Origin: Cupriavidus nantongensis
GTDB taxonomy: Bacteria > Pseudomonadota > Gammaproteobacteria > Burkholderiales > Burkholderiaceae
Length of the DNA: 64,000 nucleotides
Assembly: GCF_001598055.1 (NCBI RefSeq)
Contig: NZ_CP014844.1
Coordinates: forward strand, 434,001 to 498,000
Direction of reading: 5' to 3'
In this document: piece after piece, positions 41,423 to 62,644 of the stretch
Position numbering within the stretch: the first letter of the stretch is position 1
How the letters are laid out: each line of letters begins with the position of its first letter
Notes under the pieces: model-generated
The model's input: only the letters and a program-made list of their open reading frames with translations
What the model was told of the DNA's origin: nothing
Databases searched by the model: none
Translations under genes and position numbers: made by a program

Positions 41423-42105
41423 CGCAAAGCAACGGGCGCGAACCAGAGGCGGTCATCACGGGCAGCGCGCAGGGCAGCATGCAGGGTAGCGAAGCGGACG
41501 CCGACCAGCAGCCTGCGCTGCCGGCGCGCAAGCGTCCGCGCCCCGGCGAGCGCCGCGTGCAGATCCTGCAGACGCTGGCCACCATGCTGGAGCACCCGCG
41601 CGGGGAGAAGATCACCACCGCGGCGCTGGCCGCGCGCCTGAGCGTGTCCGAGGCGGCGCTGTACCGGCATTTCGCCAGCAAGGCGCAGATGTACGAGGGG
41701 CTGATCGGCTTTATCGAGCAGACCGTGTTCGGCCTGATCAACCAGATCACCGACAAGGAAGAGCACGGCCTGCGCCAGGCGCATGCGATCGTGCGCATGC
41801 TGCTGTCGTTCGCGGAAAAGAACCCGGGCATGACGCGCGTGCTGACCGGCGAGGCGCTGGTGGGCGAGCACGAACGGCTGCAGGAGCGCATCAACCAGGT
41901 GGTGGATCGCATCGAGGCTTCGCTGCGCCAGTGCCTGAAGGTGGCGGTGACCCAGGCCGCGTTCCCGGCGGATGCCGATATTCCCGCGCGCGCCGCGCTG
42001 ATCATGGCGGCGGTGCAGGGCCAGTGGCACCGCTATGCCAAGAGCGGTTTCCGCAAGTCGCCGTCGGACCATGCCGAGGCGCATCTGCGCGTGCTGCTGG
42101 GCTGA
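41419..42105 (+). CDS. slmA: Nucleoid occlusion factor SlmA (TetR-like)
   Basis: A 228-residue TetR-fold DNA-binding protein that protects the nucleoid by inhibiting FtsZ assembly over DNA. The helix-turn-helix is in KITTAALAARLSVSEAALYR, followed by HFASKAQMYEGLIGFIEQTVF, the SlmA signature. The C-terminal regulatory domain includes LLSFAEKNPGMTRVLTGEALVGE. About 40 extra residues at the N-terminus (Gln/Ser/Gly-rich) precede the conserved RPRPGERRVQILQ. Co-translated with the HAD gene. Confidence 0.9.
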   Translation: MTQSNGREPEAVITGSAQGSMQGSEADADQQPALPARKRPRPGERRVQILQTLATMLEHPRGEKITTAALAARLSVSEAALYRHFASKAQMYEGLIGFIEQTVFGLINQITDKEEHGLRQAHAIVRMLLSFAEKNPGMTRVLTGEALVGEHERLQERINQVVDRIEASLRQCLKVAVTQAAFPADADIPARAALIMAAVQGQWHRYAKSGFRKSPSDHAEAHLRVLLG

Positions 42106-42130
42106 ATGCAACCTGCCGGGCCGATTGCTC

Positions 42131-42136
42131 TATAAT
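42131..42136 (+). promoter_or_regulatory. -10 element of the metX leader
   Basis: A consensus TATAAT lies 25 bases after the slmA stop and 13 bases before the riboswitch aptamer, placing the transcript start at the foot of P1. The -35 region (near 42107-42113, TGCAACC) is weak. The same -10 and the same 13-base offset occur ahead of metK. Confidence 0.78.
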
Positions 42137-42143
42137 TGCCCGG

Positions 42144-42230
42144 TCGCGCCGATTTGATGACTGGCTTGCGGGCGCGCGGCAGCCACGGACAGGGTCCGAT
42201 GGCTCGCCACTATAAATGCGGCTAAAGAGG
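42144..42230 (+). promoter_or_regulatory. SAM-II (SAM-alpha) riboswitch upstream of metX
   Basis: The conserved SAM-II elements appear in order. TCGCGCCGATTTGA opens P1, CTTGCGGGCGCG closes it (CGCGCC 42145-42150 with GGCGCG 42171-42176), and TATAAATGCGGCTAAAGAGG (42211-42230) supplies the pseudoknot strand and SAM-contacting AAAUG and GCUAAA segments. Between P1 and the last element is an extra hairpin, AGCCA-CGGAC with GTCCG-A-TGGCT (42181-42204). SAM-II aptamers sense S-adenosylmethionine and repress methionine-synthesis genes. The recognition is from consensus memory, not a covariance search. Confidence 0.87.
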
Positions 42231-42304
42231 TTGGGTCGGCGCCCCATGCCACCACGGCAGTGGATGGCGCCGGCACGCGGAATCCCGCAAGGAATCCAGC
42301 GAAT

Positions 42305-42353
42305 CCCGACTTGGCTGCGACGCTTGATACGCAAATGCCGGTCGGGTTTTTTT
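42305..42353 (+). terminator. Intrinsic terminator in the metX leader (riboswitch platform)
   Basis: CCCGAC (42305-42310) pairs with GTCGGG (42341-42346), and GGC with GCC inside it, followed by T7. It sits between the SAM-II aptamer and the metX start, so it can act as a conditional terminator. Another strong hairpin at 42238-42271 (GGCGCC...GGCGCC) lies between aptamer and terminator. Confidence 0.82.
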
Positions 42354-42380
42354 ATGCCCGTTCGCCACGGGCCGGATTCC

Positions 42381-43562
42381 ATGACTGATGTCGCCCTGCC
42401 GACCGCCGCGCCTGCCGCGCTCGACCTGCCGCCGGATTCGGTCGGCGTGGTCGCGCCGCAGCGCATGCACTTTGCCGAGCCGCTGAAGCTGCGCAACGGC
42501 TCGTCCATCGCCGGCTACGACCTGATGGTCGAGACCTACGGCACGCTCAACGCGGACCGCTCCAACGCGGTGCTGGTCTGCCACGCGCTGAACGCCTCGC
42601 ACCATGTCGCCGGCGTCTATGCCGACGCCCCGCGCGACGTGGGCTGGTGGGACAACATGGTCGGTCCCGGCAAGCCGCTCGATACCAACCGCTTCTTCGT
42701 CATCGGCGTCAACAACCTGGGCTCGTGCTTCGGCTCGACCGGGCCGATGAGCCTGAACCCGGCCACCGGCGCGCCCTATGGCGCGGCGTTCCCGGTGGTC
42801 ACGGTCGAAGACTGGGTCAATGCGCAGGCGCGCGTGGCCGACGCCTTCGGCATCACGCAGTTTGCCGCGGTGATGGGCGGCAGCCTGGGCGGCATGCAGG
42901 CAGTGGCCTGGAGCCTGATGTACCCGGAGCGCCTGCGCCACTGCATCGTGATCGCGTCCACGCCCAAGCTGTCGGCGCAGAACATCGCCTTCAACGAGGT
43001 GGCGCGCAGCGCGATCCTGTCGGATCCGGACTTCCATGGCGGCAACTACTACGCGCATGGCGTCAAGCCCAAGCGCGGCCTGCGCGTGGCGCGCATGATC
43101 GGCCATATCACCTACCTGTCGGACGAGGACATGGCCGAGAAATTCGGCCGCGAACTGAAGAGCGAGGACATCCGCTTCTCGTTCGACGTCGAGTTCCAGG
43201 TGGAAAGCTACCTGCGCTACCAGGGCGACAAGTTCGCCGAGTACTTCGACGCCAACACCTACCTGCTGATCACACGCGCGCTCGACTACTTCGATCCCGC
43301 GCTGGCGCACGGCGGCGACCTGACGCGCGCGATGGCGCAGACCAGGGCCAGCTTCCTGGTAGCCAGCTTCGGCACCGACTGGCGCTTCGCCCCCAGCCGC
43401 AGCCGCGAGCTGGTCAAGGCGCTGCTGGACAACAAGCGCCCGGTCTCGTACGCCGAGATCGACGCCCCCCACGGCCACGATGCCTTCCTGCTCGACGACC
43501 CGCGCTATCACAACCTGATGCGCGCCTACTACGACCGCATCGCTGAGGAGATCGGCGCATGA
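42381..43562 (+). CDS. metX: Homoserine O-acyltransferase
   Basis: A 393-residue alpha/beta-hydrolase-fold enzyme that acylates homoserine for methionine synthesis. Landmarks are [14 protein letters not shown], nucleophile Ser168 in MGGSLGGMQ, the acid Asp region at DYFDPAL and the catalytic histidine in [12 protein letters not shown]. Some proteobacterial MetX proteins use succinyl-CoA rather than acetyl-CoA; I cannot tell which applies. The ATG at 42381 was chosen because upstream in-frame codons lie within the leader terminator and its T-run. It is controlled by the SAM-II leader and overlaps metW by 4 bases. Confidence 0.95.
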
Positions 43563-44170
43563 ACGCCCTGGCCAATCCCAATATCCTGGCGCTGCGCCCC
43601 GACTTCCGCGCGATCGCGCGCTGGATCGAACCCAACTCCACCGTGCTCGACCTGGGCTGCGGCGACGGCAGCCTGCTGCGCGTGCTGCAGGACGAGCTCG
43701 AGGTGCAGGCCTATGGCATCGAGATCCGGGACGAAGGCGTGCTGGCCTGCGCGCAGAAGGGCGTGCATGTGATCCAGCAGAACCTGGAAGGCGGGCTCGC
43801 GCTGTTCGAGGACAAGAGCTTCGACACGGTGATCCTGTCGCAGACGCTGCAGACCATCCACAACACCGCGCAGGTGCTGCGCGACACGTTGCGGGTCGGG
43901 CGCGAGTGCATCGTCTCGTTCCCCAACTTCGGCTACTGGCCGCACCGGCTGTCGGTGTTCCGCGGCCGCATGCCGGTGTCGGAATCGCTGCCTTACCAGT
44001 GGTACAACACGCCCAACGTGCGCGTGCTGACCATCAGCGACTTCGAGGCGCTGGCGCCCAAGGTCGGCCTGCGCGTGATCGACCGCGTCGTGATGCACGA
44101 GGGCGTGACCGTCAGCTGGGGCGTCAACTGGCGCGGCAGCCTGGCGGTGTACCGGGTCTGCGCGGCCTGA
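43559..44170 (+). CDS. metW: Methionine biosynthesis protein MetW
   Basis: A 203-residue SAM-methyltransferase-fold protein that accompanies MetX in many beta- and gamma-proteobacteria and is needed for, or boosts, homoserine acylation. The glycine motif is [11 protein letters not shown], followed by [13 protein letters not shown] and LSQTLQTIH, all MetW signatures. The start overlaps metX (ATGA), which makes co-translation, and control by the SAM-II leader, likely. Its own catalytic role, if any, is unclear. Confidence 0.95.
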
Positions 44171-56235: not shown

Positions 56236-57543
56236 GTGGCGGCAAAGGAGCGGCAGGAACGGGCAGTGCGGCAGGCGGCAACGCCGTCCCCAACGGCGGA
56301 GTCCGCCGGCAACGGCGAGTCGCTGGCCGAGCGCGGCGCCCAAGTGCGGCCGCGCAAGCCGGTGCGCAAGGCGGCCAAGGCGCCCGACCGGCCCGCGCAC
56401 GAGGCCTACTCGGTGCGCGCGCTGGTGTTGCAGGGCGGCGGCGCGCTCGGCGCCTACCAGGCCGGCGTGTACCAGGGCCTGGCCGAAGGGGGCATCTTCC
56501 CCAACTGGGTCGCCGGCATTTCGATCGGCGCGTTGAACGCGGCCATCATCGCCGGCAATCCGCCGCAGCGCCGGGTCGAGCAGCTGCGGGCGTTCTGGGA
56601 ACACATCTGCGCGCAGCCGTGGCTGCCCAGCCTGTCCTACACCTGGTTTGCCGATGAAGCGGCAAGCTGGCCCGAGCCGATGCGGATCTGGTTCGACGGC
56701 CTGCACGCAGCGCGCGCCATGCTGGAGGGCCAGCGCGGCTTCTTCCAGCCGCGCAGCTGGCCGGCGCTGATGTCGCGCTACTCGGACCCGACCCATGCCA
56801 GCTTCTACGACACCAGGCCGCTGAAGGCCACGCTGGAGCGCTTTGCCGACTTCGACCTGATCAACCATCGCCCCGACCTGATGCGGGTCTCGGTGGGCGC
56901 GGTCAATGTGCGCACCGGCAACTTCGCCTACTTCGACAATACCCGCGACAAGCTCTGCGCCGAGCATTTCATGGCCTCGGGCGCGCTGCCGCCGGGCTTT
57001 CCGGCGGTGGAGATCGATGGCGAATACTACTGGGACGGCGGGCTGGTCTCGAACACGCCGCTGGCCGAGGTGCTGACCGCACAGCCGCGGCGCGACGCGC
57101 TGATCTTCCAGGTCGACCTGTGGAGCGCGCGCGGCAAGCTGCCGCACGACCTGATCGACGTGGCCGAGCGCCAGAAGGACATCCAGTATTCCAGCCGCAC
57201 CCGCGCCATCACCGACTATATGCGCGAGCAGCAGAACCTGCGCCGCATGCTCAACGAGGTGATGGCGCTGGTGCCGCAGTCGAAGCGCGACAACGAGTGG
57301 TACCGGCGCGCGGCCGAGCAGTCGTGCGATGCGCGCCGTAACGTGATCCAGCTGATCTACCGCGACAAGTCGTTCGAGAACCTGGCCAAGGACTACCAGT
57401 TCGGCCCGCTGACCATGCACGAGCACTGGACCAGCGGGCTCGAGGATATCCGCCAGACCCTGCGCCATCCGCAATGGCTGGCCATGCCCAGCCGCGAGCA
57501 GCCCTTCGTCACGCACGACGTGCATCGCGGCAACGGCGGGTGA
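56236..57543 (+). CDS. Patatin-like phospholipase with DUF3734-type C-terminus
   Basis: A 435-residue patatin-family acyl hydrolase. The oxyanion motif is LQGGGALGAYQAGVYQ, the nucleophile is Ser96 in GISIGALNA, and the dyad aspartate is in YYWDGGLVSNTPL. The C-terminal about 120 residues (HDLIDVAERQKDIQYSSRTR and so on) match the DUF3734 type often linked to polyhydroxybutyrate metabolism. A basic 55-residue N-terminal extension precedes the domain. I chose GTG 56236 because GGGAGGGAG lies 7 bases upstream; a GTG at 56188 lacks this. No transmembrane segment is evident. Confidence 0.86.
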   Translation: MAAKERQERAVRQAATPSPTAESAGNGESLAERGAQVRPRKPVRKAAKAPDRPAHEAYSVRALVLQGGGALGAYQAGVYQGLAEGGIFPNWVAGISIGALNAAIIAGNPPQRRVEQLRAFWEHICAQPWLPSLSYTWFADEAASWPEPMRIWFDGLHAARAMLEGQRGFFQPRSWPALMSRYSDPTHASFYDTRPLKATLERFADFDLINHRPDLMRVSVGAVNVRTGNFAYFDNTRDKLCAEHFMASGALPPGFPAVEIDGEYYWDGGLVSNTPLAEVLTAQPRRDALIFQVDLWSARGKLPHDLIDVAERQKDIQYSSRTRAITDYMREQQNLRRMLNEVMALVPQSKRDNEWYRRAAEQSCDARRNVIQLIYRDKSFENLAKDYQFGPLTMHEHWTSGLEDIRQTLRHPQWLAMPSREQPFVTHDVHRGNGG

Positions 57544-61346: not shown

Positions 61347-61353
61347 AGCGTGT

Positions 61354-61425
61354 ATCGCCGAGTTAACTGACAACTTGCGGGGCGATGCGGCTCTAACCGG
61401 GCTGCCTGAAATACCGCTAAAGCGT
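61354..61425 (+). promoter_or_regulatory. SAM-II (SAM-alpha) riboswitch upstream of metK
   Basis: P1 strands ATCGCC (61354-61359) and GGCGAT (61381-61386) flank AGTTAACTGACAACTTGCGG. The conserved CTTGCGG is shared with the metX aptamer. GAAATACCGCTAAAGCG (61408-61424) provides the AAAU and GCUAAA elements. An additional small hairpin, GCGGC with GCTGC (61387-61405), fills the space seen in the metX copy. No intrinsic terminator follows, so the platform is probably translational. It is less canonical than the metX copy. Confidence 0.72.
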
Positions 61426-61480
61426 CGCCGCCATGAACCGAACAGGCTGGCACGCAATAGCCAACCTGGAGAATAAGTTC

Positions 61481-62644
61481 GTGGCAAACGACTTCCTTTT
61501 TACTTCGGAATCCGTCTCCGAAGGCCATCCCGACAAGGTCGCCGACCAGATTTCCGACGCCGTCCTGGACGCCATCCTGGCGCAGGACAAGTATGCGCGT
61601 GTGGCAGCTGAGACGCTTTGCAACACCGGTCTGGTGGTGCTGGCCGGGGAAATCACCACGACCGCCAATGTCGATTACATCCAGATCGCGCGCGACACCA
61701 TCAAGCGCATCGGTTACGACAACACCGATTACGGCATCGACTACAAGGGCTGCGCGGTACTGGTGGCCTATGACAAGCAGTCGCCCGACATCGCCCAGGG
61801 CGTCGACCGTGCGTCCGATGACTACCTGAACCAGGGCGCCGGCGACCAGGGCCTGATGTTCGGCTACGCCTGCGACGAGACCCCGGAACTGATGCCGTTC
61901 CCGATCTACTACGCGCACCGCCTGGTCGAGCGCCAGTCGCTGCTGCGCCGCGACGGCCGCCTGCCCTGGCTGCGCCCGGACGCCAAGTCGCAGGTCACGG
62001 TGCGCTATGTCGACGGCAAGCCGCACAGCGTGGACACCGTGGTGCTGTCGACCCAGCATTCGCCCGACATCACCCAGGCGCAGATCCGCGAGGCAGTGAT
62101 CGAGGAAATCATCAAGCCGGTGCTGCCGGCCGAGATGCTCAAGGAAACCAAGTACCTGGTGAACCCGACCGGGCGCTTCGTGATCGGCGGGCCGCAGGGC
62201 GACTGCGGCCTGACCGGGCGCAAGATCATCGTCGACACCTACGGCGGCGCCTCGCCGCACGGCGGCGGCGCGTTCTCGGGCAAGGACCCGTCCAAGGTCG
62301 ACCGCTCCGCCGCCTACGCGGCGCGCTACGTGGCCAAGAACGTGGTGGCGTCGGGCCTGGCGCGGCAGTGCCAGGTGCAGGTCAGCTATGCCATCGGCGT
62401 GGCGCGGCCGATCAACGTGACGGTCTACACCGAAGGCACCGGCAAGATTCCGGACGCCAAGATCGCCGAGCTGGTGCAGGAGCATTTCGACCTGCGCCCG
62501 AAGGGCATCGTGCAGATGCTGGATCTGTTGCGGCCGATCTACGAGAAGACCGCGGCCTACGGCCACTTCGGCCGCGAAGAGCCGGAATTCTCGTGGGAAG
62601 CGACCGACAAGGCGGCTGCGCTGCGCGCCGCGGCGGGCCTGTAA
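61481..62644 (+). CDS. metK: S-adenosylmethionine synthetase
   Basis: MetK forms SAM from methionine and ATP. The GTG at 61481 gives a 387-residue protein beginning (M)[19 protein letters not shown], with the methionine-loop [32 protein letters not shown] and the P-loop-like [22 protein letters not shown] lies 8 bases upstream of the GTG. An in-frame ATG at 61433, right after the riboswitch, would add 16 residues ([12 protein letters not shown] and on); I regard it as a possible leader start. A strong terminator follows. It is divergent from the lipid A acyltransferases. Confidence 0.95.

Follow-up and report, generated by a model that had tools for sequence, protein, structure and literature searches.

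SAM-II riboswitches (RF00521, SAM_alpha) are connected with intrinsic termination in the earlier literature. According to the available text of Corbino 2005 (PMC1273637) a putative intrinsic terminator is present in many SAM-II RNAs, and the alignment legend there includes Bordetella bronchiseptica; the link with terminators is also found in Barrick and Breaker 2007, together with the point that variable stem-loop insertions are tolerated by many riboswitches. The presence of SAM-II in beta-proteobacteria and its association with terminators are therefore already known. A precedent for function is the metZ SAM-II of S. meliloti, which has a predicted terminator and for which the accessible part of the report (PMC9373788) describes a short RNA that goes up at high SAM. 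A further RNA, metXZ, described with six conserved sequence regions, was presented as novel by Leyn 2014 (PMC4239095), the available portions of which report SAM_alpha solely in Rhizobiales and Rhodobacterales, place metXZ in all 6 Ralstonia and all 8 Burkholderia genomes of Table 1 and propose that its GC-rich regions 3 and 4 pair with the terminator stem. Within the open-licence PMC literature, covered in part by a weak search, no paper equating metXZ with SAM-II was found. The family RF02424 (Bp2_287, "Burkholderia sRNA") is filed as an sRNA gene, while in the available text of PMC3521395 its authors suggested a cis element of methionine genes.

The DNA analysed here (the window) is a stretch of 64,000 nucleotides from Cupriavidus nantongensis, and on its forward strand a SAM-II-type aptamer spanning 42145-42233 lies upstream of metX (42381-43562; homoserine O-succinyltransferase, NF047916 688.5 bits) and metW (43559-44170; TIGR02081 279.7 bits). 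The closest named metX, among the best 80 of at least 586 relatives, is that of Cupriavidus necator at 97% identity. A TATAAT −10 box (42131-42136) stands 8 nt upstream of P1, and TATAAT is found no more than 25 nt from the aptamer in 19 of 19 readable leaders of Cupriavidus, Ralstonia and MAGs. The 5' strand of P1 (42145-42150) has its partner at 42171-42176, the outer pair covarying across the order, although in the lowest-energy fold this 3' strand is paired with 42318-42324 instead. Enclosed by P1 is L1 (42151-42170; GATTTG...CTTGCG, with CTTGCGG at 42165-42171), which is also the 5' strand of P2 and whose part 42158-42170 is in addition a partner of the terminator 3' arm. By analogy to the SAM-II structure we take L1 to be the SAM-pocket strand. 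L3 (ACTATAAATGCG, 42209-42220) contains ATAAATG at 42212-42218, and its C42219 is the counterpart of the covarying pseudoknot partner of G42170. The GCTAAA segment (42221-42226) is placed by the RF00521 alignment and by conservation in the genus, and the core strand GCGGCTAA (42218-42225) is complementary to the terminator 5' arm at 42311-42318. The P2b 3' strand (GGTTG, 42229-42233) can pair with TGACT at 42158-42162, weakly so in the window given G-U wobbles in three of the five pairs.

Between P1 and L3 sits an inserted hairpin, P3, of 31 nt and −19.2 kcal/mol; the initial annotation had rightly seen such an insertion but drew it too short, at 42181-42204 rather than 42178-42208. Its reading of a SAM-II core directed at metX was sound, P1, CTTGCGG, ATAAATG and GCTAAA all being present, and the large GC hairpin described downstream of it exists too, as the GC-rich P4 in the region between aptamer and terminator, with an extent of 42235-42274 in place of 42238-42271. 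The transcription terminator with a T7 run is likewise there, comprising a hairpin at 42305-42346 (−18.8 kcal/mol, 10-nt loop; 5' arm 42305-42319, 3' arm 42330-42346) and, directly 3' of it, the U7 tract 42347-42353. The hairpin begins about 71 nt 3' of the aptamer, near as had been proposed if not at the suggested 75 or so. Within its 3' arm, 42330-42344 is complementary to L1 over 13 pairs (CGCAA, a 2-nt bulge, then GCCGGTCG). A simple consensus scan of the leader returned no −35/−10 pair, no −35 match and no terminator; the 10-nt terminator loop exceeds the 3-8 nt limit of the scan.

At gathering cut-offs no Rfam family matched across the 64-kb window, and the suggested RF00521 check gave only two sub-threshold pieces in E-value mode. 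These were 19.8 bits at 42145-42176 (P1 and L1), below the cut-off of 36 bits that the window copy does not reach, and 12.2 bits at 42189-42246 (the 3' half, starting inside P3); they flank P3 and keep the conserved segments of both halves. Up to E 10 only four Rfam matches were obtained in 41900-42500, with SAM-II long loops (RF01726) and SAM-V not among them, and matches to RF02836 (14.1 bits) and RF02424 (10.7 bits) in the leader were set aside as far under their cut-offs. As regards membership of SAM-II, the locus has P1 around an L1 with GATTTG and CTTGC, a P2 pseudoknot of L1 with the strand after GCTAAA, seen as covarying pairs in the wider set, and a methionine/SAM gene downstream in metX-metW. 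The compact form, in which L3 directly follows P1, is absent owing to the 31-nt P3, and the element is filed as a SAM-II variant and not as a standard member because P3 separates P1 and L3.

How RF00521 performs on relatives was surveyed in three sets of loci from the order. The cut-off was passed by 7 of 11 compact forms and by none of 9 with a hairpin in the first (20 loci, L039 being counted as compact and duplicating L038 in aptamer type), by 7 of 20 compact forms in the second and by 0 of 20 hairpin forms in the third (L061 also being in the first), for totals of 14/31 compact and 0/28 hairpin; metX is downstream of 10 of the 14 compact loci that pass. The P3-type hairpin lowers the RF00521 score, though more than half of the compact forms (17/31) fail too. 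The proposal that lack of a significant covariance-model match would refute a SAM-II is hence too strict, since hairpin-bearing close relatives that keep the core fail the cut-off in all 28 cases tested.

By DNA search a match was found in 56 of 60 relatives, and in each genome outside the genus the best match falls in the metX portion of the query. With a core pattern the aptamer is recovered in all 30 fetched loci of the genus, and in the 21 of these chosen for alignment (the left-out L029 differs at one L1 base) P1, L1, L3 and GCTAAA are nearly invariant, whereas the hairpin differs among loci in both sequence and length. A pattern search of 274 genomes of the class found the window alone, being too strict with the taxonomy too broad, and covariance models were used instead. 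Model R1, built from the 21 genus loci, matches at least 154 of 349 genomes of the order and at least 151 of 200 of the family, lower bounds obtained with 11 or 20 candidates scored per genome. From these 152 loci with distinct aptamers were kept, about a quarter of them from the genus of the window. Lengths of the P1-GCTAAA linker are bimodal in this collection (46 compact, 105 hairpin, one intermediate) and range from 22 to 113 nt across hairpin forms; among 80 named Burkholderiaceae metX loci, one on a contig that ends before the leader, an insert of at least 15 nt is present in 79 of 79 readable leaders. An R1 match of 15.8 bits at 56954-57041 falls inside a 451-aa open frame and was treated as chance, although it is included, along with four tandem second elements, in the alignment (A2) underlying model R2. 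Across the phylum R2 matched 75 of 348 genomes, and 3 of the 22 newly fetched best loci (L252, L256 and L257, SAM-II-like and within the class but outside the order) carry a hairpin at the site equivalent to P3.

The gene downstream is metX in 108 of the 152 distinct loci; when 20 of the 44 others were scanned, metZ was found in ten, metH in seven, a cystathionine gamma-synthase family member in one and neither in two. The SAM-II elements before metH belong to other families of the order (L054, L115, L117, L124, L127, L134, L165). Hairpin forms with long hairpins also precede DUF885 proteins, which are not known methionine genes, at L129 and L131.

An outer stem forms for P3 more often than expected by chance, closing in 53 of the 58 non-redundant inserts and in 308 of 1160 dinucleotide shuffles. 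For P1 and P3 together 176 cells changed on both sides against 54.9 in shuffles, with none of 500 as high, in an alignment that was fitted to the structure and includes five doubtful or second-type rows. On a MAFFT alignment of the genus P3 shows 8 double-change cells against 2.6 shuffled, where a control slid by one column gives 9, so that support for P3 there is modest; P1 is invariant on that alignment, and the covariation comes from more distant relatives because P1 and the core are invariant within the genus. The pseudoknot was sought by scanning all 442 position pairs in 47 representatives of 151. The top pair joins the base after TTGC to the second base before GCTAAA (paired in 47/47 against 44.1 expected, a signal that rests on one A-U and one C-G variant), and the second is a P2b pair homologous to 42161-42230 (41/47 against 27.9), its neighbouring P2b pair being weaker at z 2.3. 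The third-ranked pair (28 against 20.0 expected, z 3.8) fits no SAM-II pairing. Judged from these alignments, covariation in the wider set of relatives extends to the predicted pseudoknot and to the stems.

The initial annotation regarded a terminator platform as uncommon for SAM-II, which is not borne out either by the reports of Corbino 2005 cited above or by our own heuristic (five T plus a hairpin of −9 kcal/mol), since the latter finds a terminator in 119 of the 152 distinct loci. These 119 were reduced to 109 by an energy and distance filter and thinned to 43 representatives for duplex tests; the representatives share ancestry, and the swap tests leave kinship in. The duplex of L1 with the terminator 3' arm has an own mean of −12.93, against −10.92 for swapped and −8.14 for shuffled arms, with none of 2000 swaps as low, and in the window it comes to −19.3 (−18.2 with slightly different segments). 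For L1 and the 5' arm the own value (−6.51) is weaker than the swapped one (−6.88). For the 5' arm it is the core around GCTAAA that is locus-specific (own −7.60, swapped −6.82, 0/2000, shuffled −5.61), in a test made after TTAGC had been noticed in several 5' arms; the core with the 3' arm beats shuffled arms but is not specific (313/2000). The bases after GCTAAA (the P2b tail) have zero specificity for either arm across the 43 representatives. L1 is thus specifically complementary to the terminator 3' arm across the 43 loci, and by a strict pattern the terminator arms and aptamer strands are kept in 29 of 30 genus loci.

When the leader (42143-42353) is folded freely, −97.7 kcal/mol is obtained and 42158-42170 is paired with 42330-42334 and 42337-42344 (13 pairs), whilst the terminator 5' arm region is engaged by 42171-42174 with 42321-42324, 42175-42180 with 42314-42319 and 42228-42234 with 42306-42312. 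The core helix of 42218-42225 with 42311-42318, a duplex of −12.2 kcal/mol, is absent from this fold and when forced costs 3.1 kcal/mol (−94.6); forcing P1 and the terminator gives −92.7. The transcript to 42325 folds differently (free −90.4, core helix −85.5, P1 −86.0), and therefore the order of events is not settled by these energies, which ignore pseudoknot, ligand and kinetics.

On the sequence evidence it is very probable that the leader is a SAM-II riboswitch carrying P3 as an additional hairpin where P1 meets L3, and that it turns metXW off by transcription termination. Without SAM, L1 (42158-42170) would pair with the terminator 3' arm (42330-42344) and polymerase would read through. 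Other aptamer strands may hold the 5' arm at the same time, a pairing less certain than that of L1. In the lowest-energy fold the holders would be 42171-42180, comprising the 3' strand of P1 and the beginning of P3, and 42228-42234 of P2b, whereas the cross-locus comparison points to the GCGGCUAA core (42218-42225); as the main holder in the window the latter finds no backing in the free fold, and it is retained as one of two options. Binding of SAM would contribute the stability missing from the pseudoknot and so draw L1 and the other strands off the terminator. Once SAM closes the pseudoknot the terminator should fold, because the closed aptamer either uses or encloses each of these strands, and the RNA would end near 42350. 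We regard P3 as a peripheral stem whose presence does not disturb the pocket.

A different expression platform seems to operate in Paraburkholderia-type genera. By the heuristic a terminator is present in 18 of 19 readable leaders of Cupriavidus, Ralstonia and one related assembly, and in none of 60 leaders (L278-L337) of Paraburkholderia/Burkholderia, Trinickia, Caballeronia and Pandoraea. Twenty-seven of the 60, though 0 of 12 from Pandoraea, have TTTAGCCGYC, complementary to the aptamer core GCGGCTAAA, followed by GGCGGA before the start codon; the count in mononucleotide shuffles is 0.0, for a motif spotted by reading before it was counted and in leaders that are closely related. This suggests that Paraburkholderia-type leaders may control the ribosome site. 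In Leyn 2014, as far as its available text goes, terminators are "consistently present", in contrast to their absence by the heuristic from these 60 leaders.

Such terminator-less relatives with the same aptamer are also what would be expected if the terminator in the window were constitutive or uncontrolled and the aptamer acted solely on translation or RNA stability. That reading is very unlikely, given the locus-specific complementarity of L1 to the 3' arm and the upkeep of arms and aptamer strands together in nearly all genus loci. Similarly improbable is a role of the inserted hairpin as a functional second sensor or protein site instead of a spacer; a hairpin-sized insert is indeed kept in every readable named Burkholderiaceae leader, but its sequence and length vary widely, as the spread in linker lengths makes plain, and compact relatives do without it.

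The nature of the signal is a separate issue, as the leader could share the SAM-II fold and yet respond to a protein or to a ligand other than SAM, such as SAH or homocysteine. Specificity is unreadable from sequence, and close aptamer variants in another class are reported to sense spermidine (PMC10853860), although the available text of that paper concerns variants of SAM-I and the spermidine riboswitch was not adopted as a parallel. Against a change of ligand, both RF00521 halves retain their conserved segments, and in the same order most of the compact relatives that pass the RF00521 cut-off precede metX. We consider another ligand unlikely and continue with SAM-dependent termination as the preferred account of the metX leader.

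The genome contains further elements of this kind. R2 finds eight places up to E 10, three of them with E below 1e-5, namely the metX leader (81.8 bits), an element at metZ (39.9) and one at metK (37.9), the last score not being independent because the R2 alignment already held four metK-type second elements. The metK-type element lies in the window on the forward strand at 61353-61431 (R2 match 61352-61434), directly before metK (61481-62644, methionine adenosyltransferase, TIGR01034 601.3 bits), and has P1 at 61354-61359/61381-61386, a variable hairpin at 61388-61404 and GCTAAA at 61416-61421. No Rfam family matches it at cut-off, nor does RF00521 up to E 5 in L170. Covariation in the metK type amounts to 19 cells changed on both sides against 4.8 shuffled (0/500). 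Model R3 matches 168 of 300 genomes of the order, a figure not to be read as the number of metK-type elements, some places being metX-type elements already found with R1; metK is downstream in 20 of the 30 best R3 loci, the window's own included, and among 23 R3 loci parsed by pattern the element is located upstream of metK in 13 and downstream of a SAM-II, in tandem with it, in 8. Tandems of a compact SAM-II with terminator and then a metK-type element are seen at L057, L059, L135, L137, L141, L144 and L152. The frame after the tandem begins MFDCL in L057, L135, L137 and L144; a Pfam scan of it in L057 and L144 gave no match, and a MATE transporter comes next in L057.

The metZ element (L169:1501-1573, reverse strand) lies between purF and metZ, and on its opposite strand RF02424 scores 47 bits, under the cut-off of 70; sub-cut-off RF02424 matches likewise fall on the opposite strand of eight other SAM-II loci. 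On this evidence RF02424 seems to be a SAM-II element read in the antisense direction.

A wider proposal, which we hold with slightly more doubt than belief, is that the hairpin-bearing metX switch is one branch of a larger beta-proteobacterial SAM-II superfamily which tolerates a hairpin at one fixed site, whose aptamer strands switch terminators in Cupriavidus/Ralstonia or the ribosome site in Paraburkholderia-type genera, and of which a second, uncatalogued metK branch (61353-61431) may constitute a distinct SAM-responsive class. If so, the metK branch would be SAM feedback on its own synthesis.

Set against known systems, the metX leader resembles SAM-II as described in the available text of PMC1273637 in its P1, its L1 with GATTTG/CTTGC, its GCTAAA, its P2 pseudoknot and its methionine genes, and also in the promoter just before P1 and the terminator downstream. 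It is unlike RF00521 in having P3 at the P1/L3 junction and a split, sub-threshold score, and the Rfam model fails on the tested hairpin forms from Burkholderiaceae metX leaders. SAM-II long loops (RF01726) and SAM-V are SAM-II-related or -like aptamers according to the accessible parts of PMC2864571, PMC2704228 and PMC9481103, and gave no model match up to E 10 in the leader region. The tandem arrangement parallels the tandem SAM-II riboswitches in the available text of PMC9481103, where a terminator-type first copy is followed by a second near the start codon; in contrast, it is metK-type elements that form the second copies here, of which four score 16.8-20.7 bits with R1.

The leader also matches metXZ. 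Compared by way of the text description available (PMC4239095), the genes and taxa are the same, as are the pseudoknot of conserved regions, the terminator and the poly-U, and the proposed pairing of regions 3 and 4 resembles that of 42171-42180 in the free fold of the window; a metXW leader in beta-proteobacteria with a pseudoknot and then a terminator is what is found, with Cupriavidus as the nearest named relatives. The element in the metX leader can thus be equated with metXZ as described in Leyn 2014, an RNA already known, though in that description not as SAM-II. An orphan regulatory RNA is in this way tied to a ligand-binding riboswitch class, making the ligand question directly testable, and a strand-level model is provided in which sister genera couple one aptamer to different expression platforms. 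What is new relative to these systems is the placing of the metXZ-type leader as a SAM-II variant, with its fixed hairpin site, an L1 antiterminator examined with controls, and a metK-type sibling.
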